45,176 nucleotides of DNA, from the NCBI GenBank assembly GCA_937910875.1, contig CALENA010000017.1, forward strand, positions 1 to 45,176. Reading direction: 5' to 3'. This document shows, piece after piece, positions 25,802 to 44,596 of the stretch (its first letter is position 1; every line of letters begins with the position of its first letter). The notes under the pieces were generated by a model. It saw only the letters and a program-made list of their open reading frames with translations. It was not told where the DNA came from and made no database searches. Position numbers and translations under genes: made by a program. Origin of the DNA: an uncultured Desulfobulbaceae bacterium. GTDB taxonomy: Bacteria > Desulfobacterota > Desulfobulbia > Desulfobulbales > Desulfocapsaceae.

Positions 25802-26838
25802 TGACCTATCAGATGACCTGGATCACGCCGCAGCTGGCCGTGGGCTATGCGCCCATGTCCTACGCCGAGCTGGATACCATTCGTGAGCAGGATATCAGCG
25901 GGATTGTCAATCTCTGTGGTGAGTTTTGTGACCTGCATGAGCTGGAGGAGCAGTCCGGCTTTGAGGTCTATTATCTGCCGGTGCCTGATGAGTGTGCCCC
26001 GGATATGGCGGCCATGGAACAGGCCCTTGAGTGGTTGGATGAGGCCCTGTACCTGAAGAAAAAGATTCTGGTCCACTGTCGGCACGGTCATGGCCGGACC
26101 GGGACCTTTGTCTCGGCCTATCTTCTCCGGCGCGGTCTTGGCCTCAAGCGGGCCGAAAAGACCTTGAAGAAGACCCGGGCCAATCCCACCAATTACAGTC
26201 AGTGGAAACTGCTGCGCCGGTACGGAAAGGAACAGGGCCAGCTCGACCTGCGTGAGGCCACCATTGAAGACAAGCAGACCGTGGATCTCCTGCCTTTTCT
26301 TCAGGAGTACCGTGGCCTGCTGGCCGAGGCCGAGAGGCTCCGTGATCCTGGCGGCAAGGGCCTGCCGCTGGAGGTCGAACGCTGCTGTCACAATTATTTT
26401 GAGCTGGGGCTGATTGAGGCGGTCTTTGTCAGTTTTACCATCAATCGGACCCACAACCGTGTCCGGCGGACAGAGATCGTGGAGCGGGCCCTGGCCCTGG
26501 CTGCGGAGATGAAGGAGCTGCGGCAGGAATATGGCCAGGAGCACTGGCGGGCGGTGCAGGAAGTCATTGCCCGGCCGGGCTACGCCTGCCCGCTGCTGGA
26601 AGGCGGTGCCTGTCTGATCCACGAGAGTCGTCCCCTGCGCTGTCGCTGTCTGGATGATCAGAATCAGAACCGGCGTTTGAGCGAGCTGACCAGTGAAATC
26701 TCCCGCAATGTATTCCTGGTTTTGACCGGTGAGTTCCCGCCTGCCGGGCCCTTGCGTTTTTCGCTGTTCGATACGATTTCGGGTCGCTTTGTACAGCAAT
26801 ACTTTCAGGCCATGCTTGGTCGTGGTGGAGAGGGGTGA
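25801..26838 (+). CDS. Dual-specificity/tyrosine phosphatase fused to a YkgJ-like cysteine domain
   Basis: A 345-residue protein. The N-terminal 150 residues are a cysteine-dependent phosphatase: the P-loop HCRHGHGRTG (about residues 91-100) matches HCxxGxxRT and the general-acid Asp lies in PVPDECAPD. The C-terminal half has CPLLEGGACLIHESRPLRCRC, the signature of YkgJ/UPF0153 zinc- or iron-binding proteins, although the first cysteine pair of that family is not obvious. It overlaps the PEP-synthase-like gene and ends 4 bases before the NtrC-family gene. A phosphatase acting on a phosphoprotein made by its neighbour is an attractive inference, not shown. Confidence 0.8.
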   Translation: MTYQMTWITPQLAVGYAPMSYAELDTIREQDISGIVNLCGEFCDLHELEEQSGFEVYYLPVPDECAPDMAAMEQALEWLDEALYLKKKILVHCRHGHGRTGTFVSAYLLRRGLGLKRAEKTLKKTRANPTNYSQWKLLRRYGKEQGQLDLREATIEDKQTVDLLPFLQEYRGLLAEAERLRDPGGKGLPLEVERCCHNYFELGLIEAVFVSFTINRTHNRVRRTEIVERALALAAEMKELRQEYGQEHWRAVQEVIARPGYACPLLEGGACLIHESRPLRCRCLDDQNQNRRLSELTSEISRNVFLVLTGEFPPAGPLRFSLFDTISGRFVQQYFQAMLGRGGEG

Positions 26839-26842
26839 GCCA

Positions 26843-28261
26843 GTGAGTGACCGGATGAAAAAGATGATCATCGTTGATGATGAACCGGATCTCCTGATCC
26901 TGTTGCAAAAGGTCCTGGAGAAGAAGTGCAACTGTCGGGTCGATATTGCCCGTTCCGGGGCGGAGGCCCTGGCTCTGGCCGCTGAAGAACTGCCGGACGT
27001 GGTTCTGACCGATGTCAAGATGCCGCACATGGATGGCTTTCAGCTCCTTGAGGAGTTGAAGAAGCTGGATGAGACCATAACCATCCTGGTCATGAGCGCC
27101 TTCGGGACCATTGAGGTGGCGGTTCAGGCCCTGAAGCAGGGGGCCTATGATTTCTTTGAAAAGCCCTTTGATAATGCGGAAATCATCCGGGTGGTCCGGC
27201 GGGCCATGGAGCGCACCCAACTCCTGCGGGAGAATCAGGCCCTCCAGCGGTATCTGACCCGGGTTGATCAGCCGTCCGAGTTTGTCGGTAGCAGCCCGGC
27301 CCTGATGCAGACCGTTGATCTTCTTCACCGACTGGGGCAGGGTGATGCCACGGTCCTGATCCGGGGGGAGTCCGGGACCGGCAAGGAGGTGGCGGCCCGG
27401 ACCATACACGCCAGGAGTTCCCGGGCAGGCCGCCATATGGTGACCGTCAACTGTCCGGCTCTGCCTGAACAGATTCTCGAGAGTGAGCTGTTCGGCTACA
27501 GCAAGGGGGCCTTTACCGGTGCAGATCGCAAGAAGGACGGTCTCTTTCTCGAGGCCGACGGCTCAACCATTCTCCTGGATGAGATCGCAGATATCCCCAT
27601 CGGTCTGCAGACCAAGCTTCTCCGGGTTCTCCAGGAGAAGGAGATCCAGCCCCTGGGCCAGACCCGGACCTTTAAGGTTGATGTCCGGGTCCTGGCCTCC
27701 ACCAACCAGAACCTTGAGGCCAAGATTGCCCAAGGTGAGTTCCGGGAGGATCTGTACTATCGGTTGAACGTGATGAGTGTGGTCATGCCCAGTCTGACCC
27801 GGATGCGGGAAGATATCCCGTTACTGGCCCAACATTTTCTGGCTCGGTATGGGGCTGAATATCAGCGTCCCAATCTGGAGCTGAGTCCGGATGCCGTCCA
27901 GGTCCTCATGGCCCGGGAGTGGAAGGGCAATGTGCGTGAGTTGCAGAATGTCATCAACCGGACCGTGTTCCTGGCCCCCGGGCCCCGGATCAGCGCGGCT
28001 GATCTCCTCTGCGCCGAGGGGCAGGGGGCAAATCCTGTGGAGAGCCCTGAATGCGTCTTTGATGGACTGCGGAGCCTGAGTTATAAAGAGGCCAAGGCCC
28101 AGGTGGTGGATCGTTTTACCATGGCCTATCTCGGTCATTCCCTGGAAGAGAGCCAAGGCAATGTCTCGGCCGCAGCCCGGACCAGCGGCATGGAGCGTCA
28201 GGCCTTTCAACGCCTGATGCGTCGTCACGGGCTCAGTGGAAGTGACTATAAGTCTTCGTGA
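26843..28261 (+). CDS. NtrC-family sigma-54-dependent response regulator
   Basis: A 472-residue activator. REC domain with acidic pocket VDDEPD, phosphoacceptor Asp about 57 in VLTDVKMPHMD and Lys in FFEKPFDNAE; AAA+ domain with Walker A GESGTGKE, the sigma-54 contact ELFGYSKGAFTGA (about 215-227), Walker B ILLDEIADI and an intact arginine-finger region; C-terminal Fis-type HTH (GNVSAAARTSGMERQAFQRLM). GTG 26843 has AGGGG 7 bases upstream; ATG 26855 is an alternative. Third gene of the operon. A good -24/-12 promoter lies 200 bases downstream at 28459, so the operon beginning at 28636 is a likely target. Its kinase could be the one encoded at 29133 or at 14298. Confidence 0.93.
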   Translation: MSDRMKKMIIVDDEPDLLILLQKVLEKKCNCRVDIARSGAEALALAAEELPDVVLTDVKMPHMDGFQLLEELKKLDETITILVMSAFGTIEVAVQALKQGAYDFFEKPFDNAEIIRVVRRAMERTQLLRENQALQRYLTRVDQPSEFVGSSPALMQTVDLLHRLGQGDATVLIRGESGTGKEVAARTIHARSSRAGRHMVTVNCPALPEQILESELFGYSKGAFTGADRKKDGLFLEADGSTILLDEIADIPIGLQTKLLRVLQEKEIQPLGQTRTFKVDVRVLASTNQNLEAKIAQGEFREDLYYRLNVMSVVMPSLTRMREDIPLLAQHFLARYGAEYQRPNLELSPDAVQVLMAREWKGNVRELQNVINRTVFLAPGPRISAADLLCAEGQGANPVESPECVFDGLRSLSYKEAKAQVVDRFTMAYLGHSLEESQGNVSAAARTSGMERQAFQRLMRRHGLSGSDYKSS

Positions 28262-28635
28262 TGGCGTTGATTTAAATTTCTGCAAGTGCTGTTCCGTTCG
28301 GAATCGCATCTTTTTTGTTTCCCTGCATCTTTTTTGTTTCACTTCTCTGTCCGGTTTTTCCCCGCTTTCTGGCACTGACTCTTGTGTCTGATCCCCCTCT
28401 TCTTTTTTAATCCCCTCTTTTGACAGTGCATTTTTAATTGTGAGCCAGAAAGCGATTTTTGGCACTGAAAATGCAATGTATTCACCAGTAACTGCAGGTG
28501 TTAGCCAGAACTCAAGAGTTGAGAGAGTGGCTGTGTTCTTACTTTCAAAGTTCTGTGGAACCGGGCTGACAGCGGAAAAGATGCAGACTTCTGGTTGGGG
28601 TGTGAACACGATTTGATCGGAAACAAGGACCGCCA
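28262..28635. other. Regulatory intergenic region with a long-range inverted repeat
   Basis: No gene. CGCTTTCTGGC (28363-28373) and GCCAGAAAGCG (28444-28454) are perfect 11-base inverted copies 70 bases apart, the second adjoining the sigma-54 promoter; GCCAGAA recurs near 28504. A short direct repeat of GCATCTTTTTTGTTTC occurs at about 28305-28340. AACTCAAGAGTT is a further palindrome near 28509. Such sites are where an enhancer-binding activator would bind. Confidence 0.5.
28459..28475 (+). promoter_or_regulatory. Sigma-54 (-24/-12) promoter
   Basis: TTGGCACTGAAAATGCA: the -24 GG (28461-28462) and -12 GC (28473-28474) are exactly 10 bases apart and TTGGCAC matches the -24 consensus; the -12 box reads ATGCA rather than TTGCA. 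It lies 160 bases before the gene at 28636 and directly downstream of an NtrC-family activator gene. Confidence 0.65.
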
Positions 28636-29136
28636 ATGACGTGCTTCAAAAAAGTTGCACCTGGTTTATGCTGGTTAAAATCCATGATTTCTCTGGTGAT
28701 TTTGTTGCCAGGGCTTGTGATGTTGTTCCCGGTCCAGGCCTGGGCCCTGCAGACCCACGGTCCGCCTGAGGCGATTATTGTCCACCAGATGGCCCATGTC
28801 TTCTACCTGGGTGCCCTGGTCTACCTGTTCTGGGACCTGCGCCGCACTGCTACTCGAGGCCGTGGCTGGCGGATGCTTCAGATTTTCTGCGTCCTGATGA
28901 TGGCCTGGAACGTCCTGGCCTTTATTGGCCATCTATCGACCCTGGCCATGCAGAGCACGGATTTCTCGCATGAATTCGGCTATCTCTCCTCAATGATGCT
29001 GGGGCCGTTTTCGGCAATCAAGCTGGTTCATTATTTTACCCGGCTTGATCATCTGATCCTGGTTCCGGCCCTGCTTATCCTCTTCCTCAGCCTTCGCTCG
29101 CTCTATCGCAGCTCTGAAGAGGGGGAAGAGTTATGA
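28636..29136 (+). CDS. Small membrane protein of a signalling operon
   Basis: A 166-residue protein, not recognised. A hydrophobic segment at about residues 18-38 may be a signal peptide or helix (…VILLPGLVMLFPVQAWA, possible cleavage after AWA), followed by helices near 50-66, 82-102 and 138-156. Several His residues lie at membrane borders (HGPPEAIIVHQMAH, GHLSTLAM, VHYFTRLDH), which could bind haem or metal. ATG 28636 has AAGGA 7 bases upstream. It overlaps the sensor kinase gene by 4 bases (ATGA), so it may be the input subunit of that kinase. Confidence 0.65.
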   Translation: MTCFKKVAPGLCWLKSMISLVILLPGLVMLFPVQAWALQTHGPPEAIIVHQMAHVFYLGALVYLFWDLRRTATRGRGWRMLQIFCVLMMAWNVLAFIGHLSTLAMQSTDFSHEFGYLSSMMLGPFSAIKLVHYFTRLDHLILVPALLILFLSLRSLYRSSEEGEEL

Positions 29137-30704
29137 CCAGTTTGCCGCTCTTTCCAGCCATTTTTACCGATATGGCCGGCTCGGGGCTCATTATTATCCT
29201 GTCCGCCCTGTCTCTGCGTTACGCCTATCTCCTGACCCGTCGAGATCCTGATAATTTCCTCTGGGGATTTCTCTTTTATTTTTGTATCACCCTGACCATT
29301 TTCTCCATTTCCCGGGCCGTGGGCCATCTGGTCAAGCAGATGCTTCTCATCGGTGGTCAGGGAGAGCTGTGGAACGAGCTGTCGCCCTTTTCCGGGGGCC
29401 TCAATACCCTGCTCATGATTTCACTCTCGGCCGTGATTGTCTTTTATCATAAGGGGGTCGAGGGGTATCAGGCCATACGACGCAAGGCCCTGAGTCTCAA
29501 GGAGGCCAATGAGCGGCTCAATGAGGCTGCAGATCAGTTGCGCAAGATGAATCTCCATCTGGAAGAGCGGGTGGAGGCCCGGACCGCCGAGCTGTCGGCC
29601 TCTGAACAGAAATTTCGTCATTTCTTCAGTAATTCAAAGGATATGGTCTATTTCTGTAATGCCGAGAATCGTCTGGTGAACATGAACAGGTCTGGTCTTG
29701 AGATGCTGGGCTATTCAGTGGACAATCCGCCGACCCTGGGGCTGGTCGATCTTTTCTTGCACGAGGAAGACCTGGAACAGTATTTCAATTCGATTCTGAG
29801 AGATGGTTTTGTCCGCGATCAGGAGGTGGAATTTGTCAAGAAGGATGGTTCGGTGCTCTATGTCCATCTTTCGGCCAACGGGGTCTTTGATGAGGATGGT
29901 GAGTTCACGGGGTGTGAGGGGATTGCCAAAGACCTGACCCGGGTCAAGCTGATGATGGGCCAGCTGGCAGGCAGTGAAAAGATGGCCTCGGTCGGGCAGA
30001 TGGCCGCCGGTGTGGCCCATGAAATTAATACCCCCCTGGGCGTGATTCTGGGCTATGCCCAGCTGATGATGGATGATTTCGGTCCTGAGACCGAGGAGCG
30101 TCAGAACCTGGAGATCATCGAGCGTCAGACCAAAGCCTGCCGCAAGATTGTGGCCGATCTCCTCAAGTTCTCCCGCCAGTCCGAGAGCGCCCGGGAGCAA
30201 CTCTCCCTCAATGAGGTGATCAGGGACGTGCTGGCCGTGACCGAGCATACCCTGAACATGAATCATATTACGGTCCATCGCCATTTGACCCCGGATCTGC
30301 CCCTGGTGATCGGAGACTCGGAAAAGTTGCGTCAGGTCTTTGTCAACTTTATCAATAACGCCCATCATGCCATGGAAGAGAAGGGGGGCGGAGATCTTTT
30401 TCTGGAAACCCGTTCGTTGCCCGAATCAGGTGAGGTAGAGGTCATGGTTCGGGATACCGGCCATGGCATTCCGGAGAAGATCAGGGCCCAGATCTTTGAT
30501 CCCTTTTTTACCACCAAGTCGGTGGGCAAGGGAACCGGTCTGGGGCTCTCGGTCTCCTATGGGATTATTCAGGAGCAGGGGGGGCGAATCGAGGTGGAGA
30601 GTCTGGCTGCCAGCGAAGCGCAGGGCCCAGAGTTACCGGGTACTGCTTTTCACGTCTACCTGCCGGTCCTGCCTGCTGATCTCACTTCGGAACTCACTCT
30701 ATAG
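29133..30704 (+). CDS. Membrane PAS sensor histidine kinase
   Basis: A 523-residue kinase. Membrane helices at about residues 10-30, 44-66 and 88-106 form a short N-terminal sensor with no large periplasmic domain. A coiled coil (about 115-150) leads to a PAS domain (about 155-270, [24 protein letters not shown]), then DHp with [16 protein letters not shown] (His about 296) and a complete HATPase with [19 protein letters not shown] and [15 protein letters not shown]. It overlaps the upstream membrane-protein gene; the response-regulator gene starts 42 bases after it. Probably under the sigma-54 promoter at 28459. Confidence 0.92.
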
Positions 30705-30746
30705 GGCCGTTGGCTGGAGCATTCAATTGATACACGGAGAGGTCGT

Positions 30747-31124
30747 ATGGCTGAGATAATGGCTTTGGATGATGTGCAGGACGCCACGATTCTGATTGGC
30801 AAGATACTGCGTAAAAAGGGCCATGCGGTTCACACCTTTACAGAAGAAGATGAGGCCGTGGCCCATGCCCGCAAGAATCATGTGGACCTGGCCATACTCG
30901 ATATCAAACTTAAAAAAATGAGTGGGCTTGAGGTGCTGGCCCTCTTGAAAGAGGTGCAGCCCGAGATCCAGGCACTCATGTTGACGGGGTATCCGACCAT
31001 TGAGACGGCCCGTGAGGCAATTTCTCTGGGTGCTGTCGAGTACTGTGTCAAGCCCATTGATCGGGATGAACTGGAAGACAAGGTTGAAAAGATCCTGGCC
31101 AGCATCGGCAAGGGGAAGAAATGA
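30747..31124 (+). CDS. Single-domain response regulator
   Basis: A 125-residue CheY-like receiver with no output domain. Phosphoacceptor Asp52 lies in LAILDIKL, the Thr/Ser position is MLTGYPT and the conserved Lys is in YCVKPIDRDEL. The N-terminal acidic pair normally in VDDE is replaced by LDDVQD, still acidic. GGAGAGG precedes the ATG. Placed between two kinase-like genes, it probably relays phosphate to another protein rather than to DNA. Confidence 0.9.
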   Translation: MAEIMALDDVQDATILIGKILRKKGHAVHTFTEEDEAVAHARKNHVDLAILDIKLKKMSGLEVLALLKEVQPEIQALMLTGYPTIETAREAISLGAVEYCVKPIDRDELEDKVEKILASIGKGKK

Positions 31125-31187
31125 ACTCAGGGTGGAGCAGGGGTTGAGCAACATGGGCAGATCCGAAGTCCGGGACAAGGAGGCGCA

Positions 31188-32837
31188 GTGAAGGAGCGGC
31201 AGTATCTGCAGGTCTACCAGAAGGTGACCCGTCTGATCAGCATGGTCCTTGATCATCAGCAGGTCATGGATGCCGTGGTCCGTGAACTGCCGGAGCTTCT
31301 GGCCATCGATGCCGCGACCATCCGTCTGGTTGATGCCTCGACCAACACCTTTGTCCTGGGGGCGGCCCATGGCCTGTCCCTGGAATATCTCTCCCGGAGC
31401 CAGATTGACTCCGAAGAGACCATGGAAATGATCCGCTCCGGCCGGCCCGTGGCCCGGACCGACATTGGAGAGGATCAGGAATTTGCTGACCGGGATGCGG
31501 CGGTCCGGGAGGGGGTCAGGAGTGTGCTCACCCTGCCCATTCTGTTTCAGGACGCCCTGATCGGTATCCTCCGCCTCCTGACCCGCAGTGAGCGGGTCTT
31601 CAGTGAGGAGGAGATTTCGTTTTCCATGGCCCTGGCAGAACAGCTGGGAATCGCCATTGCCAACGGTCGAATGTTCAAAGACATGGAGAGTCGAGTCGAT
31701 TTCCTGCGTGAGGTCCAGGAGATTTCGGCCCTGGTGAATTCGAGCCTGGATCTGGATCTGATTCTCAACAGTATGGTTGAAAAACTGCCCAATTCCATGG
31801 GGGCCAAGGGCTGTACCATTCGCCTGCTCCAGCCGCAGACGAATCAGCTGGAACTGGTCGCGGCCCATGGTCTTTCGCAGGGCTACCTGGAACGGGGCCA
31901 GGTCGGGGGTGAGAAAAATATCAGGCGGGCCCTGAGCGGAGAGACGGTCTCGGTCTATGACGTGGCCCATGATCACCGGATTGATTACGGGGAAGAGATG
32001 GCCGCCGAGGGCATCTGCTCATTGTTGTCCGTCCCGCTCAAGGTCGGTGGCGAGGTGATTGGAATTATCCGTATCCTCAGTGGTGAACACCACAGTTTCA
32101 CCAGCAGTGAGATCAACTTTGCCGAGACTGTGGCTGAGATCAGCGGGACCGCGATCCAGAATGCCAGGACCTATCGGAAGATTACCCTGCTCTTTAACCA
32201 GATTGAGGAAAGTGAGCGTTTTGTTGCCAATATCCTCAACTGCATTCGCCCCCAGTTGCTGGTGGTGGACCGGGACAAGCATTTGGTTCTGGCCAATCAT
32301 GCCCTGCTTGAGGCCGTTGGCCGCACCGAGGCCGAGGTCCTGGGGATGGATTATCGGGGTCTGTGGGATCATGAGGAGTGTCAGGAGGCACTCTGTCCCG
32401 TGGATCAGGTCCTGGCCGATGGTGAGTCGTCCACCTCTATCCATCAGACCCTGCAGGACGACGGTGTGCACTGGGTGGAGCGGACGGCATCACCCATGCG
32501 TGATGAGCAGGGTCAGGTGGAGTATGTGATTGAGATTATCCGTGATATTACGGCAAAACATCGCTTCGAGGAGGAACAGCTGGAGCGGGTGAAGCTCCAG
32601 GGCGTGGTTGAACTGGCCGGGACCGTGGCCCATGAGATCAACTCCCCCTTGTTTGCGGCACTGGGGACGGCCCAGCTCCTGGAGGAGGATATCGCAGACG
32701 AGCAGGCCCGTGTGGACGTGGCGACGATTGTCCGTAATTTGAAGATGATCGGTGAGTTGACCGCCAAGATGACCAGAATGACCGGTTATGAAAGTCGGGA
32801 GTACGTCGGCAACACCAAGATTGTCGATCTGAAATAA
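31188..32837 (+). CDS. GAF-GAF-PAS protein ending in a DHp domain, without an ATPase domain
   Basis: A 549-residue soluble protein. Two GAF domains lie at about residues 18-165 and 180-330 (LLAIDAATIRLVD and NSMGAKGCTIRLLQ mark their first strands), a PAS domain at about 345-460, then a DHp-like helix pair with AGTVAHEINSPLFAALGTAQLL (His about 482). It ends 67 residues later with no N, G1 or G2 boxes, so it cannot bind ATP as a histidine kinase; there is no frameshifted remnant downstream. It may be a phosphotransfer or dimerisation partner. GTG 31188 has AAGGAGG 5 bases upstream. Same operon direction as the kinase and receiver genes before it. Confidence 0.85.
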   Translation: MKERQYLQVYQKVTRLISMVLDHQQVMDAVVRELPELLAIDAATIRLVDASTNTFVLGAAHGLSLEYLSRSQIDSEETMEMIRSGRPVARTDIGEDQEFADRDAAVREGVRSVLTLPILFQDALIGILRLLTRSERVFSEEEISFSMALAEQLGIAIANGRMFKDMESRVDFLREVQEISALVNSSLDLDLILNSMVEKLPNSMGAKGCTIRLLQPQTNQLELVAAHGLSQGYLERGQVGGEKNIRRALSGETVSVYDVAHDHRIDYGEEMAAEGICSLLSVPLKVGGEVIGIIRILSGEHHSFTSSEINFAETVAEISGTAIQNARTYRKITLLFNQIEESERFVANILNCIRPQLLVVDRDKHLVLANHALLEAVGRTEAEVLGMDYRGLWDHEECQEALCPVDQVLADGESSTSIHQTLQDDGVHWVERTASPMRDEQGQVEYVIEIIRDITAKHRFEEEQLERVKLQGVVELAGTVAHEINSPLFAALGTAQLLEEDIADEQARVDVATIVRNLKMIGELTAKMTRMTGYESREYVGNTKIVDLK

Positions 32838-32954
32838 AGGATACCCGGAAGCCATCAGCCGCCCCCTGAAATGCGCGGTTGTATCAGTCCAGTTGAGCAA
32901 AGGAGGAACGAGCCTATGGCTGCACTGTATTAGCATGATTTTGAAGGAAATTTT

Positions 32955-32972
32955 CCGGTCGGACAGGACCGG
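32955..32972. repeat. Inverted repeat upstream of the TauE-type exporter
   Basis: CCGGTC (32955-32960) and GACCGG (32967-32972) around a 6-base centre, in the 220-base gap before the exporter gene. A possible operator or short hairpin; no T-tract follows. No promoter is evident in the gap. Confidence 0.35.
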
Positions 32973-33057
32973 GGAAGGAGTCAGCTGTTTGTGGTCAGTG
33001 GCTGGTCATATTGAGATGAAATGACCAGTCTGTACAACCAATTCAAGGGAGGACGGC

Positions 33058-34749
33058 ATGAAAAGAATTACCTTGCTGTGCGGTATTGTCCTTGCAAGCA
33101 TCATGCTTGTGAGTTCTGGGGCCTGGGCCGTGGATGCCACGGTGAGCGCCAAAACGATTAAAGCGGGGGGCGCCATTTCGGTGAGCGGTACCATTGATCC
33201 GGGCCAGGATCTGTATGTGGTTGTGAGTACCGACAAGATGTTTACTCCGGCAGATGCGCCGGGACCCAAGGAGCAGAAACGGCTGCTTAAAGGGAAAAAT
33301 GGCAAGAACGCCTTTGGTTCGACCGCCATTCCGGCCACCTATTATGTGGTGACCTCAAATCCGGACAGTCTGGCTACCTCGAAAGAGGCTTGGAAGGGTC
33401 AGACCAAGGGCCTCTTTGCCTTTCAGCCCTTCAAGTACAAGGTTCGAGTCAACAAGATCAATCAATGGGGTGAGATCGATTCCGCAGTCAAGGGGATGCT
33501 CGGTCCGGTCAATTCCGAAGATCAGTGGAAGTTCCTGGCCTTTACCCATGAAGACAAGTTCGGTATCAATACCATTGCCAAGGAAAGCCCTGTCGGCGGC
33601 GGTAATGCCCGGATGATCATGACCGATTATACTCAGAAATCCGAGGCCTGGAACAAGGGTGTGTCCATGCAGCTTGACAAGGCCACCGGCAAGTTCTCGG
33701 TCTCCATGCCCCCCTACAAAAACCTGGCCCCGGGCACCATCCTTGGTGTCTATGTCAATGGGCAGAAGGTTGATACCGTGAGCATTGAAGCCTCTACCTT
33801 TTTCTTCAAGACGGCCAATGTCTACATGAACCCGATCATCGTCTTTGGCGGTGCCTTTGTCATCGGCGTTCTTTTTGTCATCATGGGCGCGGCCGGTGGT
33901 CTGTTCACCGCGGCCTTCCAGATTACGGTCATCGGCACCAAGGGTCCTATCGGTATCAATGCCGGTAACACCATCAAGCCCACCAACCTCTTCCTGACCA
34001 TGTGTTCACCGATCACCGGTCTTGCCAACTACTTCAAGGAAAAACGTTTTGCCTATCCGGTGGCCATCTTCTTTGCCATTGGTATCGTCCTTGGCGCCTT
34101 CTTTATTGGCCCCCCGCTGTCAGCCAAGTACTTGAATCTGGCGGCCTTTAAATTTTATCTGGGCGTGATCTGCTTTATTATCGGTGTGAAGCTGTTCATT
34201 GAATCCCTGCCCTCGTCCATCGAGAAGAAAAAGGCCATGAAGGCCATTGTCCAGAAGTTCAACGCCGCAGTCAAAGAGGCCAAGTCTTCGGGCAAGGCCA
34301 TGGAGATGGGCAAGGTCGAGTTTGACAAGTTTAACTTCATTCAGTTTGATATGCGTTTCTGGGGTGAGACCTTTGTCGCCCGGCCCCTGATGATGCTGGT
34401 CGGTGGTGTTCTGATGGGTATCATTGCCTCGGCCTTTGGTGTTGGTGGTGGTTTCATGTTTATGCCCTTTATGACCACCCTGGTTGGGTATCCCATGTAT
34501 CTGGCCGTGCCCATTGCCCTGGCCGGAACCTTTGCCACCTCAATTGGCGCTGTGGCCAAGTATGCCCTGCTCGGCTATCAGCCTGACTGGATCATGGCGG
34601 CCCTGATAGCGGCCGGTGCCATGTGTGGTGGTGCAGTTGGTCCCAAGATTCAGAAGAAGCTGCCTGAGATCTTTCTCAAACGTCTCCTGGCCGGTGCCCT
34701 GATTCTGACCTGTCTGAACTACACTGGTCTGCTCTGGTTCCTGCGTTAA
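33058..34749 (+). CDS. TauE/SafE-family exporter with a large periplasmic N-terminal domain
   Basis: A 563-residue membrane protein. A signal peptide (residues 1-24, cleavage after AWA) is followed by a roughly 230-residue periplasmic beta-rich domain (VSAKTIKAGGAISVSGTIDPGQDLYVVVS), then the TauE/SafE transporter: helices from about residue 258, with GAAGGLFTAAFQITVIGTKGPIGINAGNTIKPTN and the second half-repeat GIIASAFGVGGGFMFMPFMTTLVGYP. A cytoplasmic linker rich in Lys (about 385-435) separates the two halves. The family exports sulfite, sulfoacetate or similar anions; here sulfite or another sulfur oxyanion is a reasonable guess because of the molybdoenzyme next door. GGGAGG precedes the ATG. 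A hairpin terminator follows. Confidence 0.87.
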   Translation: MKRITLLCGIVLASIMLVSSGAWAVDATVSAKTIKAGGAISVSGTIDPGQDLYVVVSTDKMFTPADAPGPKEQKRLLKGKNGKNAFGSTAIPATYYVVTSNPDSLATSKEAWKGQTKGLFAFQPFKYKVRVNKINQWGEIDSAVKGMLGPVNSEDQWKFLAFTHEDKFGINTIAKESPVGGGNARMIMTDYTQKSEAWNKGVSMQLDKATGKFSVSMPPYKNLAPGTILGVYVNGQKVDTVSIEASTFFFKTANVYMNPIIVFGGAFVIGVLFVIMGAAGGLFTAAFQITVIGTKGPIGINAGNTIKPTNLFLTMCSPITGLANYFKEKRFAYPVAIFFAIGIVLGAFFIGPPLSAKYLNLAAFKFYLGVICFIIGVKLFIESLPSSIEKKKAMKAIVQKFNAAVKEAKSSGKAMEMGKVEFDKFNFIQFDMRFWGETFVARPLMMLVGGVLMGIIASAFGVGGGFMFMPFMTTLVGYPMYLAVPIALAGTFATSIGAVAKYALLGYQPDWIMAALIAAGAMCGGAVGPKIQKKLPEIFLKRLLAGALILTCLNYTGLLWFLR

Positions 34750-34774
34750 GCCTTTATTGGTACGGGGAGGCCAG

Positions 34775-34832
34775 AAAAAACCAGGTCTTCCCGGTTTTTT
34801 TCAGCCCCGGTCGGATCACCCGGCCGGGGCTG
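34775..34832 (+). terminator. Terminator after the TauE-type gene (two hairpins)
   Basis: AAAAAACC (34775-34782) pairs with GGTTTTTT (34793-34800), ending in a T run, and is followed by a strong GC stem CAGCCCCGG (34802-34810) and CCGGGGCTG (34824-34832). The first resembles an intrinsic terminator; the second could block read-through into the molybdoenzyme operon. Confidence 0.6.
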
Positions 34833-34898
34833 AATGCTCCTTGCTGGTGACAGGGTGGTGGATGGTCTTGTGAGTTTGAAGAATTTGGAGGAATATCA

Positions 34899-37010
34899 AT
34901 GAAGAAAACAGTATTCAGCATGTGCGGCATGTGCACCGTACGCTGCCCGATCCGAGTCGAGGTCGAGGACGGTGAGGTGACCTGGATCGAGGGGAATCCG
35001 CACCTGCTCAAAGGAGCTCTCTGTGCCAAAGGATCGGCGGGAACGGCTCTGCTCAAAGATACGGAGCGCCCGCAGCAGCCCCTGATCCGGGTCGGCGGTC
35101 GCGGAGCCGGGCGCTGGCGGAAGGCCAGTTGGCCCGAGGCTCTTGATTATGTGGCCGAAAAACTTAAAACAATTAAAACTGAGCATGGGCCGGAGTCTGT
35201 GGTCCTCTCCTCGCGCGGCGGTCCCTGGCAGGGCATGTACAAGACCTTTATCCATGCCTTTGGTTCGCCCAACTATACCAATCATGACTGCACCTGCGGT
35301 CGCAATACCCATCACGCCAGCCTCTCCATCAATGGGGTCGGGCGCAAGGGTTTTGTCTATGATATTGCCAATTCCAAGCATCTGGTCCTCTTTGGCCGCA
35401 ATATGTTTGCCTCCATGCGGGTGGCCGAAAATCTCCAGATCATGGACATGCTGGACAGTGGCGGCAGGATGACCTATGTGGATGTCCGTCAGTCCATGAC
35501 CGGGCTCAAGGCCAGCCGTTTCTTTCAGGTCCGGCCCGGGACTGATTATGCCCTGGCCCTGGGGTTTATTAACGAGATCATCAAACGCGGGATCTATAAC
35601 AAGGCCTTTGTGGAACGCTATGTCAGTGGCTTTGGTGAACTCTGTCAGTTCATTGAACCCTATACCACGGCCTGGGCGGCCAAGGAATGCGGGGTCAAGG
35701 AAAAGTCGATCATCCAGTTCATTGATGAAGTGGCCGAGGATATGCCCAAGGTCATCTTCCATCCGGGCTGGAATCTCTCCCGTTACAAGGATTCCTTTTA
35801 CGCCAGCCGGGCCCTGCACATCCTCAACGTCCTGATGGGCAATATCGAACAGAAAGGGGCCCTGATTATTCCCAAGGGTGCCGGTGACTGCGGAGCCAAG
35901 GGCATTCGTAATCTTGACTGCCCCAAACCGGATATCAAACGAGCCGATGGGGTGGGTTGGAAATACAAGCATTTTGACAAGGGTCCGGGGCTGTCCCATC
36001 TCTTTTTCGATGCCATGAAGACCGGTGAGCCCTATCCGGTCAAGGCCTGGATCGCCATGCGGCATGATCCGTTCACGGCCATGCCCGATCCCCAGGCCCA
36101 GAAGGAGGCCTATGACAACTGCGATCTGCTGGTGGCCATTGATACTCATTACAGTGAGTTCGCCTGGTACGCCGATGTCATCCTGCCCGAGTCCACCTAT
36201 CTGGAGCGCGACAACCCCATCTGCCTGCAGAAGGGACCCAAGCCGCGTCTGGCCGTACGCCGTCAGGTGGTGGAGCCGGTTTTCGACACCAAGGCGGGTT
36301 GGGAGATTTTTAAACAGCTGGCCGACCGGCTCGATATCGGCGAGCATTTCCCCTATACCACCATCAATGATCTCTATGCCTGGCAGCTTGAGGGCACCGG
36401 TCATACCATTGAGGATTTTGCCGAGAAGGGCTTTATCCCGCTCACCGACAAGCCGGTGATGTATGATCCCGAGAAACTGGACGGTCAGTTCAAGACCCCG
36501 TCCGGCAAGATCGAGATCATCAGTGAGAAGTTGACCAAGGCCGGGTTTGAATCACTTAAACCCTATGTGAGTCCGGATAAACCGGCCAAGGGTCAGTTCC
36601 GTCTGGTCTATGGTCGTTCAGCGGTCCATACCCATGGACACACCATCAACAACCCCCTGCTCCATGAGCTGATGCCGGAAAACAGTCTCTGGATCAATAC
36701 CAAAGTGGCGGCACGGATGAATGTCAACGAGGGTGACCTGGTGGATGTGATTGCCTCCAACGGGGTCACTGAGACCGGTCAGGCCCATGTCACAGACTTT
36801 ATCCATCCTGAATGTGTCTATACCGTGCATGGTTTCGGTCGGCAGGTACCTTTGCAGACCAAGGCCTATCATGCCGGATTCAGTGATCAGAAGCTGATGA
36901 TCGGCCTGCTGGACAACTGGGACCAGGTCGGTGGAGCCATCAATCTCTGTGAGGTTTTTGTCACGGTGCGGCGCAGCAGCAGGAATCCCAAGAGGAGGGT
37001 TGAGTTATGA
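34899..37010 (+). CDS. Molybdopterin oxidoreductase catalytic subunit (DMSO reductase superfamily), no Tat signal
   Basis: A 703-residue bis-MGD enzyme. The N-terminal [4Fe-4S] motif is C9-x2-C12-x3-C16-x25-C42. The region expected to ligate the metal reads TNHDCTCGRNTHHAS, with Cys131 and Cys133 as candidates. The MGD-binding blocks VLFGRNMFAS and YADVILPESTYLERDN, and the C-terminal domain with GRSAVHTHGHTINN, are recognisable. It begins MKKTVFSMCGMC directly, with no twin-arginine signal, so it should stay in the cytoplasm, unlike PsrA or PhsA. Nearest by memory are the polysulfide/thiosulfate reductase and SoeA-type sulfite dehydrogenase groups; the substrate is unproven. GGAGG precedes the ATG. 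It overlaps the ferredoxin subunit by 4 bases. Confidence 0.85.
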   Translation: MKKTVFSMCGMCTVRCPIRVEVEDGEVTWIEGNPHLLKGALCAKGSAGTALLKDTERPQQPLIRVGGRGAGRWRKASWPEALDYVAEKLKTIKTEHGPESVVLSSRGGPWQGMYKTFIHAFGSPNYTNHDCTCGRNTHHASLSINGVGRKGFVYDIANSKHLVLFGRNMFASMRVAENLQIMDMLDSGGRMTYVDVRQSMTGLKASRFFQVRPGTDYALALGFINEIIKRGIYNKAFVERYVSGFGELCQFIEPYTTAWAAKECGVKEKSIIQFIDEVAEDMPKVIFHPGWNLSRYKDSFYASRALHILNVLMGNIEQKGALIIPKGAGDCGAKGIRNLDCPKPDIKRADGVGWKYKHFDKGPGLSHLFFDAMKTGEPYPVKAWIAMRHDPFTAMPDPQAQKEAYDNCDLLVAIDTHYSEFAWYADVILPESTYLERDNPICLQKGPKPRLAVRRQVVEPVFDTKAGWEIFKQLADRLDIGEHFPYTTINDLYAWQLEGTGHTIEDFAEKGFIPLTDKPVMYDPEKLDGQFKTPSGKIEIISEKLTKAGFESLKPYVSPDKPAKGQFRLVYGRSAVHTHGHTINNPLLHELMPENSLWINTKVAARMNVNEGDLVDVIASNGVTETGQAHVTDFIHPECVYTVHGFGRQVPLQTKAYHAGFSDQKLMIGLLDNWDQVGGAINLCEVFVTVRRSSRNPKRRVEL

Positions 37011-37459
37011 ACAAATACAGAATCCACCTCAATACAAGACGATGCATCGGCTGCCACGGCTGCGAGGTGCATTGTAAGACCAACAAAAATCTGCCTCCCG
37101 GACCGATCCTGTGCGAGATCGATCATCAGCCGGTGGTGATGCTCAAAGGAGTTCCCAGGACCGAGTTCTCGTTCCGCTCCTGTTATCACTGTGAGGACCC
37201 CTTCTGCGTGCCGATCTGCCCCACCGGGGCCATGATCAAACGCGGAGACGGGATTGTTTATGTGGACCAGGAAAAATGTATCGGCTGTATGGCCTGTGCC
37301 GGGGCCTGCCCCTGGGGCGTGCCTCAGCACAACCCTGAGACCAATAAGGCGGTCAAGTGCGATTACTGCATGGACCGGGTTGATGCAGGTCTGAAGCCGG
37401 CCTGTGTCACCAAGTGCACCACCCTGGCCCTCAAGTTTGTCATCATGACCGAGGTGTGA
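37007..37459 (+). CDS. Four-cluster [4Fe-4S] ferredoxin subunit of the molybdoenzyme
   Basis: A 150-residue DmsB/PsrB/NrfC-type electron-transfer subunit. Sixteen cysteines form four groups: CIGCHGCEVHC, CYHCEDPFCVPIC, CIGCMACAGAC and CDYCMDRVDAGLKPACVTKC, enough for four clusters. There is no signal peptide and no membrane anchor gene follows, so the pair appears to be a soluble cytoplasmic enzyme that passes electrons to or from an unknown partner, perhaps ferredoxin, a disulfide reductase or a membrane complex coded elsewhere. Its ATG overlaps the catalytic subunit's stop, and GAGGAGGG precedes it. Confidence 0.93.
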   Translation: MNKYRIHLNTRRCIGCHGCEVHCKTNKNLPPGPILCEIDHQPVVMLKGVPRTEFSFRSCYHCEDPFCVPICPTGAMIKRGDGIVYVDQEKCIGCMACAGACPWGVPQHNPETNKAVKCDYCMDRVDAGLKPACVTKCTTLALKFVIMTEV

Positions 37460-37626
37460 TTGCAGATCTTCCTGGCTGCAGGCACTGTTCCAGGCGAGGG
37501 GGGTCGACCAGGCAGATCTGTTGTTTTGTCCGGTTGATTCCCCTCGTGTTGTTTTCTGCTCTGTTGAATGGTCTGGGGCGCCTGCTGCCCCTGGCCCTTC
37601 TGGGAGGGGACGTTTTGAATAATTTG

Positions 37627-37655
37627 TTGACCTTTTGTTGTGTTTCCGTGATACT
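37627..37655 (+). promoter_or_regulatory. Sigma-70-type promoter of the hybrid kinase gene
   Basis: TTGACC (37627-37632), 17 bases, GATACT (37650-37655). It places the transcription start near 37662, just upstream of the repeated TGTAGG boxes. The rest of the 270-base gap after the ferredoxin gene shows nothing else. Confidence 0.5.
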
Positions 37656-37665
37656 TCCTGCAGGA

Positions 37666-37706
37666 TGTAGGTGAAAACCTTTTGCCTATGTAGGAAAAAT
37701 CCTACA
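37666..37706. promoter_or_regulatory. Operator-like TGTAGG repeats and perfect inverted repeat
   Basis: TGTAGGAAAAATCCTACA (37689-37706) is a perfect 7-base inverted repeat with a 4-base centre; an extra TGTAGG half-site lies 23 bases upstream (37666-37671). It sits between the predicted transcription start and the kinase start, fitting a repressor operator; a leader hairpin is the alternative. Confidence 0.55.
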
Positions 37707-37731
37707 ACATCATTTCATGCGGGGAATAATG

Positions 37732-40008
37732 ATGTTAGAAACGCGGCTGACAAAATTATTTATTTCTCTGGGGCTTGGTTTTACCATGATCCTCGGAGTG
37801 CTCTTTGCCATGGCCTGGTATTACGAGCAGGAGAGTGTTGTTGAAATGGCCATGGCAACGGCTCGCACCAGTGCCGGCAAGGATCTGTTGTATCGAGATT
37901 TTCTGGTTCGGCAGGGTGCGGTCTATATGGCGATGGACAAGATTGGTCCGGAGGAGAATCTTGTCCGTCCGGACCGGGATATTGCCAAACCCGATGGCAC
38001 GATGCTGACCATGGTGACCCCGAAACGATTTCTCAATCTGATCACCGCAGCAGACGCCGAAAGCTTTTCGTTCAAGGCCGCGATCAAGACCTTTATCCCG
38101 CTGGGGACGGAAGACATCCCTGATTCCTGGGAGGAGCGCTCCTTGCAGGCCCTGAGGGCCGGGGCGCTGGAGGTCGGGGAACTGAAGGTTGTCGCTGGTG
38201 AGTCGGTCCTGCGCTATATGCGTCCGGCCTATGCCACACCCACCTGTGTCCGTAACCGTCCAGGGACCGGTCTGCAGGAGGGTGATCTTTTGGGGGGGAT
38301 GAGTTTGCAGGTGCCCATGGCCCCTTATCAGGAGATCTTTGGCCGCCATATTCGCCTGATTGCCTTGATTATGTCCCTGTTCTGGCTGACCGGTCTGGTC
38401 TCTTTGTTGATTGTCCTGAGGTGTCTGTCAGGCCAGAACCAGAGTCTGCGGGCGGCCCTCATTGAGCAGCGGAATCAGGCCGAGCAGGCCCGGGTGGCTC
38501 AGGAGGAACTGGAAAAGACCTTTGATGCCATCACTGATATCATCACGGTCCAGGACGCGCAGATGCAGATCATCAAGGTGAACAGTGCGGCCTGTGAGCT
38601 CCTTGGTGCCACTTCGGAAGAGTTGATCGGTAAAAAATGTTATGAGGTCTTCCGCGGTACCCTCTTTCCCTGCGAGGGATGCCCGGAACTCCTGATCCAT
38701 GCCGGAGAGGAAAACCATCGGGCAATCATTGAACATCAGAATCTGGGCAAGATTTTTGATGTGTCGGCCGTCCCGATCCTTGATCGTGCGGGGCAGGTGA
38801 CGGCCATCGTCCATTGTGCCAAGGATATCAGCGAGACCAGGCGCCTTGAGCGACAGTTGTCCCAGGCCCAGAAGATGGAGGCCATCGGTATCCTGGCCGG
38901 GGGAATTGCCCATGATTTTAACAATATTTTGACGGTGGTCATGGGCTATGGTGATCTGGCCAAACTGGCCCTGGAGCGTGAGGGCAAGGGGTCTGTGCTG
39001 GCGGACGTGGAGGAGATCCTGCGGGCAACGCAGCGGGCCAAGGACCTGGTTCGCCAGATCCTGACCTTCAGCCGGACCAGGGAGCAGGCCCATGAGCCCC
39101 TCTATATCCAGGCCATTGTCAAAGAGGTCTTGAAGTTTATTCAGACGGTTAAACCCGCCTCAGTGAGTCTGCATCAGGAAATTGACGAGACCTGTGGGTT
39201 GATTGTTGGTGATCCCTCACAGATCCATCAGGTGGTGATGAATCTGTGCACCAATGGCTGTCAGGCCATGCAGGAGCGTGGTGGGCGACTGGAGGTTCTG
39301 CTGCAGCCCCTCGAGGTCAGTCACGAGGGCCAGATAGTGGAACTGGATCTGCCTGTGGGCCAATATGTCTGCCTCTCGGTCAGGGACAGCGGGTCTGGAA
39401 TCGAGGAATCCATTCTGGCCCGGATCTTTGAACCCTATTTTACCACCAAGGCCAAGACTGAAGGCACTGGGCTTGGTCTGTCGGTGGTCCATGGCATTGT
39501 TCAATCCATGGGTGGGGCGATCAGTGCCATGAATGTTCCCACCGGTGGTGCGCTGTTCAAGGTCTATTTCCCGGTTCATCTGGGCGCGCAGTTTATTCCT
39601 GAAACCGAAACCCTGGCCGGTCAGATTCCCAGGGGCAGCGAGTCGGTTCTGGTGGTTGACGACCAGGCGAATCTGGGGGCGGTGCTGGGCCGAATCCTGC
39701 GTGAACTCGGCTATCAGGTTGACAGTTGCGTCAGCTCTTCCCAGGCCCTGCAGGCCTTTTCGAAGCAGCCCGAAAAATATGATCTGCTGATCACTGATAT
39801 GGATATGCCGGAGCTTTCCGGGATGGATCTGGTCCGTTCTGTACGCTTGCTCCGGCAGGATATACCGGTTATCATCTATACGGGTATGAGCGGTGGCCTG
39901 TCTGAAGATGAGGCGGCGGAGTTGAGGGCGCAGGTCCTGTTTAAGCCCCTGCGGCTCAGCGAACTGGCCTGTACCATCCGTCAGGCCCTGGTACCTCGTA
40001 AATCCTAA
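37732..40008 (+). CDS. Hybrid sensor histidine kinase with DUF3365-like sensor and C-terminal receiver
   Basis: A 758-residue protein. A membrane helix (about 10-30) is followed by a periplasmic domain resembling the haem-binding Tll0287/DUF3365 group (RDFLVRQGAVYMAMDKIGP, LRYMRPAYATPTC, GLQEGDLLGGMSLQVPM). In place of the usual CxxCH it has CVRN (Cys about 171), so covalent haem attachment is not expected. A second helix lies near 208-230. Then a PAS domain with CYEVFRGTLFPCEGCP, DHp with GGIAHDFNNIL (His about 394), a complete HATPase, and a receiver with Asp about 689 in LLITDMDMPEL. ATG 37732 has GGGGAA 5 bases upstream. The last residues VPRKS and the stop are encoded by the MITE-like element, so the original C-terminus has been replaced. 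Confidence 0.88.
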   Translation: MLETRLTKLFISLGLGFTMILGVLFAMAWYYEQESVVEMAMATARTSAGKDLLYRDFLVRQGAVYMAMDKIGPEENLVRPDRDIAKPDGTMLTMVTPKRFLNLITAADAESFSFKAAIKTFIPLGTEDIPDSWEERSLQALRAGALEVGELKVVAGESVLRYMRPAYATPTCVRNRPGTGLQEGDLLGGMSLQVPMAPYQEIFGRHIRLIALIMSLFWLTGLVSLLIVLRCLSGQNQSLRAALIEQRNQAEQARVAQEELEKTFDAITDIITVQDAQMQIIKVNSAACELLGATSEELIGKKCYEVFRGTLFPCEGCPELLIHAGEENHRAIIEHQNLGKIFDVSAVPILDRAGQVTAIVHCAKDISETRRLERQLSQAQKMEAIGILAGGIAHDFNNILTVVMGYGDLAKLALEREGKGSVLADVEEILRATQRAKDLVRQILTFSRTREQAHEPLYIQAIVKEVLKFIQTVKPASVSLHQEIDETCGLIVGDPSQIHQVVMNLCTNGCQAMQERGGRLEVLLQPLEVSHEGQIVELDLPVGQYVCLSVRDSGSGIEESILARIFEPYFTTKAKTEGTGLGLSVVHGIVQSMGGAISAMNVPTGGALFKVYFPVHLGAQFIPETETLAGQIPRGSESVLVVDDQANLGAVLGRILRELGYQVDSCVSSSQALQAFSKQPEKYDLLITDMDMPELSGMDLVRSVRLLRQDIPVIIYTGMSGGLSEDEAAELRAQVLFKPLRLSELACTIRQALVPRKS

Positions 40009-40151
40009 AGTGACGCAAGATTACGAAGGGATTTGGCGGGACAACAAGGCACGGCTGGCGGCGCATAGCAGCGCTATGTAACAGAAGCCGTAACGCAGTT
40101 GGCTCGTCAAATAACAAGTAAGATGCGACAGTTTAAGCTTTACGCGGTACT
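39990..40151 (-). mobile_element. MITE-like 162-bp inverted-repeat element, copy 2
   Basis: Inverted copy of 2683-2844. Its ends are GTACCTCGTAAA (39991-40002) and, at the right, TTTACGCGGTACT (40139-40151), where one base of the terminal repeat has changed. The left end lies inside the hybrid-kinase reading frame and contributes its stop codon. It has no open reading frame of its own; mobilisation would need a transposase from elsewhere. Confidence 0.8.
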
Positions 40152-40249
40152 AGATGCTGTGACAAAAGAATGATTTTTTCGGGTTGTTTCCTGGGCTTGT
40201 CCCGGGTTTCTGGACCTGTGTGGCGTATCTGAATCGGGCATGAGGAATA

Positions 40250-42811: not shown

Positions 42812-44596
42812 ATGGCTGGAAAGAAACGGAAAACAGGGATTGACTCACCACGCATCCGGCAATTGGCCGTGCTCCTGATCACAGTGGTGGTCCTGACGCT
42901 GGTGGTCCGGGAACTGTTCATTAAGCGGCCGGATCAGGTGTATATCACCACCAGTGGTCGCATTGATATGTGTCTTTCCTGTCATCGGGAGGAAAAACTT
43001 GATCCGGCCCATGATCCCAAGGTCATTGGTTGTGCCTCCTGTCACCTGGGCGATCCGCTGTCCATTGACAAGGATCTGGCCCATGCCGGGATGGTTATGA
43101 ATCCCGGTGACCTGCGGGTGGTGGAGAAGACCTGCGGGGTTGAGGGCTGTCATCCCACGGATGTGAAAAAGGTGAAAAATTCACTTATGGCCACCAACCG
43201 GGGTATCCTTGGCACCCTGCTCTATTACTGGGGGGAGACCGAGAGTCGCCACACCGATCTGACCGTGGAAAAGCTGCTTGCAAGCGGTGAGACCTCGCTG
43301 GCCCTGGATTATTACCGGAAACTCTGCGCCACCTGTCATCTGTGGAAACAGAAGAATGATCTGCCAGGAGCCCCTGATTTTTTTAATGAAAAAGGCGGGG
43401 GGTGTACGGCCTGTCATTATATCCTGCCACAAGGTGCAACCCGCAAGGGCGTGACCGAATTTGGGGATGCGGTTCGCAGTGAAGAGAAGAAACCGCATCC
43501 CCTGGTGATCAGAAAGGTCCAGGAGGAAAATTGCATCCGCTGTCATAACCGCTCGGGTCGGATCGGTATCTCCTACACCGGGGTTTTCGAGAGTGAAGGC
43601 TACGGGACGCCTTTTGAAAAGGGTGGAGTGACCTCAAAACAGTTACCCGGAGCCCGTTTTTATCTGGAGCTGGCCCCGGATATCCATCACACCAAAGAGA
43701 TGGCCTGTATTGACTGTCATACCCGCAACGAGATCATGGGCGATGGCACCAGTTACAGCCATTACGAGGAACAACTGGAGATCTCCTGTGAGATGTGTCA
43801 TGTGGCCGGTGGTCCCAGCGGCCTGACCCGCAAGAAGGAACCGGTGACCAATATCAGCCGGCAAGACGGGCAATGGCAGCTGACCGGCAAGGTCAATGAC
43901 AAGGTGTATCCACTCAATCCACCCAAGGCCGGGGTCTGTGATTTTCCGGCCCACAAACGGGTGAGCTGTGAGGCCTGCCATTCCACCTGGGTGCCGCAAT
44001 GCTATGGCTGTCATGCCAAGCGTGACGAGTCCGAGACCCATCTGGACAAATTGACCCTTAAAGAGACTGCGGGGATGTGGGAAGAGGGCCGCTCCTATAT
44101 CCGGTATGAAAAGCCGATGCTGGCCCTCTGGGCCGAAGAAGTGGTGGTGGTCACTCCGGGCTGCCAGGATATCGTGACCCTGATTGACAAGGACGGCAAG
44201 GTTGAGGGTGGTTTTAACCGCTTTACCATGGCCGCCATCAATCCCCATACCACCCAGGCCAAGGGGCGGGACTGTGTGGATTGCCATGCCTCCACCCGGA
44301 CCGTGGGTCTGGGTGAGGGCACGGTCAGCGTCAGGGACGGCAAGTGGTCGTTTCAGGGCGTGGACCAGGGCGTGGATACTGTGGTCGGGCAGACCGTGCC
44401 CTTTGACGCCTTTGTCGATATTGATGGAAAGGCCCTGCAGCACGCCTCCCGGCCGGATCTCAGACCCTTTAACGGCGAGGAACTGCGTAAGATCCTTCGG
44501 GTGGGGCTTTGCGTTGAGTGCCATAAGGAGTACAGCGACCCCATCTGGAAAGAGTACACCAATCAGACACCCTGTCGTCGTCTGCCGGGGCAGTGA
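42812..44596 (+). CDS. Membrane-anchored 12-haem cytochrome c
   Basis: A 594-residue multihaem cytochrome. A basic N-terminus and one hydrophobic helix (about residues 17-36) anchor it with the rest in the periplasm. I count eleven CxxCH motifs (CLSCH, CASCH, CATCH, CTACH, CIRCH, CIDCH, CEMCH, CEACH, CYGCH, CVDCH, CVECH) and one CX4CH (CGVEGCH), so up to twelve haems c. The spacing is irregular, with a long haem-free stretch between CYGCH and CVDCH that looks like a beta domain. I do not recognise it as NrfA, HAO, OmcA or Hmc type. GGTGAGAG precedes the ATG, and it follows nadE by 13 bases. Likely role: periplasmic electron transfer, partner unknown. Confidence 0.88.
   Translation: MAGKKRKTGIDSPRIRQLAVLLITVVVLTLVVRELFIKRPDQVYITTSGRIDMCLSCHREEKLDPAHDPKVIGCASCHLGDPLSIDKDLAHAGMVMNPGDLRVVEKTCGVEGCHPTDVKKVKNSLMATNRGILGTLLYYWGETESRHTDLTVEKLLASGETSLALDYYRKLCATCHLWKQKNDLPGAPDFFNEKGGGCTACHYILPQGATRKGVTEFGDAVRSEEKKPHPLVIRKVQEENCIRCHNRSGRIGISYTGVFESEGYGTPFEKGGVTSKQLPGARFYLELAPDIHHTKEMACIDCHTRNEIMGDGTSYSHYEEQLEISCEMCHVAGGPSGLTRKKEPVTNISRQDGQWQLTGKVNDKVYPLNPPKAGVCDFPAHKRVSCEACHSTWVPQCYGCHAKRDESETHLDKLTLKETAGMWEEGRSYIRYEKPMLALWAEEVVVVTPGCQDIVTLIDKDGKVEGGFNRFTMAAINPHTTQAKGRDCVDCHASTRTVGLGEGTVSVRDGKWSFQGVDQGVDTVVGQTVPFDAFVDIDGKALQHASRPDLRPFNGEELRKILRVGLCVECHKEYSDPIWKEYTNQTPCRRLPGQ

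Follow-up and report, generated by a model that had tools for sequence, protein, structure and literature searches.

A conserved, regulated gene module around a cytoplasmic branch of the PsrA/PhsA molybdoenzyme group in Desulfobulbales

The window analysed here, a 45,176-nucleotide stretch of DNA from an uncultured Desulfobulbaceae bacterium (source genome 2.36 Mb, 92% complete), holds a real, conserved and regulated gene module whose core enzyme belongs to a cytoplasmic, still uncharacterised branch within the PsrA/PhsA group. We read the two-gene pair at its centre (34899–37459) as a cytoplasmic, anchorless PhsAB-like enzyme on which a sulfur oxyanion most likely gains or loses two electrons, with a thiosulfate-type reaction as the best single guess; we put the probability of this reading at roughly 40%.

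Gene layout and regulation of the module

One strand carries an NtrC-type regulator, u1, HK1, a receiver, a GAF-GAF-PAS-HisKA protein, TauE, the molybdenum subunit, its Fe-S partner and a hybrid kinase. The sequence-only reading had placed a TauE-type exporter next to a two-subunit molybdoenzyme, with signalling genes on both sides; all three ORFs were found at these positions, and the Pfam domains of the flanking ORFs agree. The features are as follows.

25801–26838, + strand: u3, dual-specificity-phosphatase domain protein, a recurrent neighbour (Pfam; found close to the enzyme at 11 related loci)
26729–28261, + strand: u2, NtrC-type sigma-54 response regulator, a recurrent neighbour whose true start is internal to this ORF (Pfam PF00072 and PF00158; gene context)
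28459–28475, + strand: sigma-54-type promoter TTGGCACTGAAAATGCA upstream of u1 (score 27.5 of 30)
28636–29136, + strand: u1, small His-rich membrane protein (conserved in 36 loci)
29133–30704, + strand: HK1, membrane histidine kinase with PAS, HisKA and HATPase domains (Pfam; conserved in 36 loci)
30747–31124, + strand: stand-alone response-regulator receiver (Pfam PF00072; recurs in the neighbourhood comparison)
31188–32837, + strand: GAF-GAF-PAS-HisKA protein (Pfam; conserved in 13 loci and in 13 of the TauE loci)
33058–34749, + strand: TauE/SafE-type (TSUP) membrane protein with an N-terminal domain of ~230 residues (Pfam PF01925, alignment)
34762–34834, + strand: terminator-like stem with a U-run, then a 15-bp GC hairpin, in the gap between tauE and the molybdenum-subunit gene (RNA fold)
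34899–37010, + strand: cytoplasmic molybdopterin catalytic subunit, PhsA/PsrA relative, ligand Cys133 (family, structure, tree, alignment)
37007–37459, + strand: electron-transfer subunit, four 4Fe-4S motifs (overlaps the catalytic gene by 4 bp)

The upstream set of u1, HK1, receiver and GAF protein is conserved across related loci, with u1, which matched no Pfam family, kept directly 5' of HK1. The downstream signalling gene, the hybrid kinase at 37717–40008, did not emerge as a conserved neighbour when related loci were compared. Pfam recognised no ATPase domain in the GAF-GAF-PAS-HisKA protein; given its conserved length and its position beside a stand-alone receiver, it is possibly a sensor that acts as a phospho-acceptor only. 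The ORF at 42812–44596, with its many CxxCH motifs, encodes a multihaem cytochrome c.

A sigma-54 score of at least 20 was reached in 83% of the u1 upstream regions (n = 36) versus 28% of shuffles; sites directly 5' of the molybdenum-subunit gene or of tauE were equal to or only slightly above shuffles. The gap between these two genes measures 149 bases, and the terminator-like stem and the 15-bp hairpin within it (RNA fold z −4.3 and −7.2) make simple co-transcription across the gap uncertain. Strong hairpins occur at the same gap in two related loci (L036 and L018), and an Rfam search of 28000–40200 gave no match.

Catalytic subunit, clade and active site

The molybdenum subunit has the three expected domains (PF04879, PF00384 and PF01568), and its Fe-S partner holds 16 Cys in four cluster motifs. 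The earlier view that the enzyme lacks both a Tat signal and a membrane anchor holds: the Tat signal is absent from the window enzyme and from all 40 full-length close orthologues, and none of the conserved neighbours was recognised as an NrfD-type or PhsC quinone-binding anchor. Nor does a TorD gene lie beside the A/B pair of the window. The best family match was PhsA at 544 bits, which is below the curated cut-off of 694, followed by the next family at 218, and relatives gave the same ranking; the ArrA family scored 120 against a cut-off of 1600 bits. Thermus thermophilus PsrA was the best structure match by sequence and by fold, being closest to the AlphaFold model of the subunit (Foldseek E 1e-44, TM 0.80), a moderate model (pLDDT 67, ligand loop 129–152 below 50) that was used for the fold only.

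These results bear on whether the pair might instead oxidise sulfite in the cytoplasm in the manner of SoeAB, passing electrons to soluble carriers. SoeA is itself cytoplasmic with a Cys ligand (PMC10100899), TauE belongs to a sulfite-exporter family and disproportionators must oxidise sulfite; against this, there is no SoeC-type anchor, the best-scoring family is PhsA, and this group of organisms is thought to oxidise sulfite via Apr/Sat (PMC9751629, PMC7117923). We consider a SoeAB-like role hardly probable.

We searched a sample of 243 genomes from the order, 88 of which had a copy at ≥60% identity, and a further set of 297 from the phylum. Relatives fell into three identity tiers (60–86%, 43–55% and 31–37%), with Tat motifs in 17 of the 18 third-tier sequences fetched. 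A scan of named genomes gave 45 loci, all in MAGs and most labelled Desulfobulbaceae, Desulfocapsa or Deltaproteobacteria; orthologues occur in sulfur-cycling Desulfobulbales. In a quick-search maximum-likelihood tree with SH-aLRT support, the first two tiers and one long-branch Tat-less sequence formed a single clade (support 100) that spans Desulfobacterota, next to a Tat-bearing clade that includes T. thermophilus PsrA (support 97). Salmonella-type PhsA branched separately, while ArrA, on a long branch, and acetylene hydratase fell outside, the deep branching order being uncertain owing to long branches. Of the four families against which the sequence-only reading would have placed the enzyme, this tree covers PsrA, PhsA and ArrA: the enzyme sits in a Tat-less clade of its own beside PsrA and apart from PhsA and ArrA.

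The active site sets this clade apart. Cys133 is invariant (40/40 close orthologues and 77/77 members of the wider clade) and aligns with Cys173 of T. thermophilus PsrA and with the aligned Cys of acetylene hydratase. An unusual metal-ligand region with two nearby Cys had been proposed, but only Cys133 marks a conserved ligand position; position 131 is Ser in 35, Cys in 25 and Asn in 8 of the 77 sequences, with a few other residues, and we rejected a two-Cys metal site on this ground. Arg106, His129 and Trp291 are likewise invariant in the 77 clade members, while Asp130 and Arg295 hardly vary. Tat-clade sequences have Arg at the position of Trp291 in 18 of 18 cases (Arg332 of PsrA) and mostly His at position 106 (His145 of PsrA), so that throughout the Tat-less clade Arg106 and Trp291 take the place of these two PsrA residues. 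In ArrA, the residues aligned with Arg106 and His129 are likewise an Arg and a His. In published structures, PsrA His145 and Arg332 and the aligned Arg and His of ArrA line the substrate site. The pocket of the window enzyme differs from that of both PsrA and PhsA, and its match to ArrA at Arg106 and His129 is, at the level of aligned residues, consistent with an oxyanion pocket. The signature of the Tat-less clade (Arg106 / NHDxxCys133 / Trp291) appears to be new, as we found no description of it in the open literature searched.

Two further readings turn on this pocket. The enzyme could be a cytoplasmic reductase of polysulfide or zero-valent sulfur, or a sulfide-oxidising enzyme working in reverse, rather than an oxyanion enzyme. 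PsrA is its nearest characterised clade, sequence cannot separate Phs from Psr substrates (PMC13047784) and SreA of bacteria reduces sulfur in the cytoplasm (PMC10100899); however, the exchange of both PsrA pocket residues in all 77 clade members and the TauE-type neighbours, which suggest an anion, make this unlikely. Alternatively, the substrate might be a non-sulfur oxyanion, such as arsenate or selenite, or an organic compound. Such a reading would account for the ArrA-like Arg106 and His129, and the PsrA/PhsA clade includes the selenite reductase SrrA (PMC10100899), yet the ArrA score falls far short of its cut-off, ArrA lies outside the clade on its long branch and no known arsenic or selenium gene was identified among the conserved neighbours, all of which leaves it quite improbable.

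Possible electron partners and the TauE module

Some relatives point to possible electron partners. Among the eighteen second-tier loci, about half have nuo genes following phsAB, as does PhsA-1 of Desulfolithobacter dissulfuricans (L111), and where the gene order reads cleanly nuoD passes directly into nuoH, so that nuoEFG is missing from the operon. Cytoplasmic phsAB heads such nuoEFG-less operons in diverse Desulfobacterota (L111, L130, L132, L136–L139, L142, L144, L147 and L044). Other relatives have a GltD-like NAD(P) flavoprotein beside phsAB. Such neighbours, a NuoEFG-less Complex I in some relatives and an NAD(P)-type flavoprotein in others, make it likely that the enzyme works with soluble electrons of low potential. 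In Thermodesulfovibrio, a pair of A and B subunits of the Psr/Phs type has been described next to Nuo genes without NuoEFG, and coupling of PsrAB to Nuo was suggested (PMC5165239). No nuo gene adjoins the window pair; two nuo clusters lie elsewhere in the source genome, and nuoEFG was not recognised in the parts of them that were read. That the window pair serves these clusters is a conjecture.

The exporter's extra domain of ~230 residues, reported earlier, is borne out: PF01925 (98.3 bits versus a gathering cut-off of 32.6) spans only residues 263–554, and the N-terminus ahead of it comprises a signal-like segment and some 230 additional residues. The structure model of TauE (mean pLDDT 66) had no PDB match at E ≤ 0.001. 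Two TauE types could be told apart, the window type (≥58% identity) and a second one (38–45%). On the fragmented contigs of the order, at least 50 window-type copies were found, at least 17 of them no more than 10 kb from a listed cytoplasmic PhsA, and at least 38 copies of the second type, at least 30 of them within 10 kb of the enzyme. TauE also lies beside PhsAB outside the order (L120 and L124). The distance correlation with PhsA was r = 0.53 for TauE, a value lowered in part by the pooling of both types, against 0.80 for HK1, 0.76 for u1 and 0.83 for the Fe-S subunit. We rejected TauE and the enzyme as an obligate pair for the orthologue type.

Window-type TauE loci unlinked to the enzyme carried a fusion of TorD to a molybdoenzyme in 10 of the 20 fetched. 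This protein, of ~949 residues and 26% identical to the window enzyme, is mostly encoded within the same series u1-HK1-RR-...-GAF-TauE, and no Fe-S subunit gene was recognised alongside. At L182 (10983–13832, − strand), TorD is fused to a Tat-less molybdoenzyme with the ligand region GTPNKVTHRQMC; further fusions lie at L185, L186, L187, L188, L192, L193, L197, L198 and L201. Since most of the fusions sit inside this series, TauE plus the sensors make up one module that at least two molybdoenzymes share. Both this shared module and its TorD-fusion alternative appear to be new, being undescribed in the open literature searched.

The proposed coupling of the enzyme to export is weakened by these data, the TauE orthologue being mostly away from the enzyme and often beside a different molybdoenzyme. 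TauE may instead belong to a sensor and transport module (u1-HK1-RR-GAF-TauE), possibly as a ligand-binding sensor, an explanation compatible with any reading of the enzyme. The 17 of 50 orthologues near a listed clade enzyme, the fusions and the lower co-divergence of TauE all favour it, although the second type is near the enzyme in 30 of 38 cases, the TauE-PhsAB adjacency extends beyond the order and unlinked cases may be contig ends; on balance, we give it close to an even chance. Taking both lines together, it is a rather doubtful proposal that the PsrA-like subfamily with the Arg106 / NHDxxCys133 / Trp291 signature serves Desulfobacterota as an interchangeable soluble electron module, paired with a Complex I lacking the NADH module, a flavoprotein or free carriers, and placed under a dedicated sigma-54/TauE module shared with a second cytoplasmic molybdoenzyme.

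Proposed function and comparison with known systems

For substrate, direction, electron carrier and transport role, we infer the following scheme. The PhsAB-like pair would convert thiosulfate into sulfite and sulfide in the cytosol, or run in reverse. Its four-cluster subunit would exchange electrons with soluble low-potential carriers such as ferredoxin, with NAD(P)H by way of a flavoprotein or, among relatives, with a Complex I devoid of the NADH module. The cell's Dsr/Apr pathway would draw on the same sulfite (dsrA is present in the source genome), and TauE would most likely either carry sulfite, or a sulfur anion akin to it, through the inner membrane or act as its sensor. The upstream kinase, receiver and sigma-54 regulator would turn the module on after a membrane-sensed signal. 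The earlier idea of a regulated cytoplasmic sulfur-oxyanion conversion is thereby upheld as to location, regulation and membership of a sulfur-compound family, on the evidence of the tree, the missing Tat signal and anchor, the sigma-54 site and the sensors; the sulfur oxyanion is plausible only, since the pocket is unlike that of PsrA or PhsA.

If the subfamily does serve as an interchangeable electron module, it could provide an electron-donating oxidoreductase of the type sought beside the NuoEFG-less Complex I in sulfur disproportionators. The module bears on cytosolic handling of thiosulfate and sulfite, and on feeding Complex I without NuoEFG, in disproportionating and sulfate-reducing Desulfobacterota (PMC12142623, PMC9751629). 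As the enzyme branch is common, bears a signature that sets it apart from PhsABC and has a promoter and a set of sensors already defined, these proposals are genetically testable.

Anchorless PhsAB in Desulfobulbaceae (PMC13047784, PMC9751629) and the Nuo link are already published, and PMC9751629 states that PhsAB had received no functional analysis. D. dissulfuricans GF1 has two copies, matched by position to where GF1_10120 (PhsA-2) and GF1_30490 (PhsA-1) are expected. PhsA-2/PhsB-2 (GF1_10120/10130, 'thiosulfate reductase-type protein'; L110) is 80% identical to the window enzyme and, like it, lacks a C subunit and has the same sensor genes and tauE just upstream; unlike it, its tauE is split in two frames, and it is known from proteome abundance alone. 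These overlapping frames (C1:1150291-1151978) reflect either a real break or a sequence error. PhsA-2 was scarce during thiosulfate disproportionation, at 0.056% of protein, and sulfate reduction gave a higher abundance (PMC9751629); a disproportionation-only role is therefore not favoured. In Ca. D. rimicarensis, phsAB is highly transcribed, ranking after aprAB and sat (PMC7117923); its genome holds an 80% relative (L022) and has two phsAB sets, either of which may dominate these transcripts.

PsrABC of T. thermophilus (2vpw) and Salmonella-type PhsABC share the fold, the Cys ligand and the A/B subunits with the window enzyme at 31–34% identity, but are Tat-exported and have an NrfD/PhsC membrane subunit and other pocket residues. 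Of the features that define these systems, the window pair has the molybdopterin catalytic domains with a Cys ligand and the four-cluster B subunit; it has neither a PhsA score at the cut-off, nor Tat on A, a neighbouring NrfD/PhsC anchor or the PsrA His145/Arg332 pair. The enzyme would most plausibly work like a thiosulfate reductase, yet by these features it falls outside PhsABC and PsrABC.

PsrAB-Nuo of Thermodesulfovibrio sp. N1 (THER_0567-0582, PMC5165239) combines a two-subunit pair with a NuoEFG-less Complex I, as do relatives of the window enzyme, whereas the window pair has TauE and sensors as its neighbours in place of nuo. The MOLY cluster (PMC12998232) is likewise an A/B molybdoenzyme without a membrane anchor in sulfur disproportionators, but is predicted to be extracellular with a TorD chaperone, while the window enzyme is Tat-less and without TorD. 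The source genome has a MOLY-like set of its own (L176, 3235–6876, contig C42: TorD, a Tat-bearing molybdoenzyme and an Fe-S subunit, then rhodanese-like genes), and elsewhere a multihaem cytochrome, an Fe-S protein, a Tat-bearing molybdoenzyme and a TorD-like protein in a row (L175, 343–6062, contig C55), whose molybdoenzyme joins ArrA on long branches, so that its placement is unsure. Finally, the TSUP exporters TauE and CuyZ share PF01925 with the window TauE, which adds a periplasmic N-terminal domain and a two-component context.
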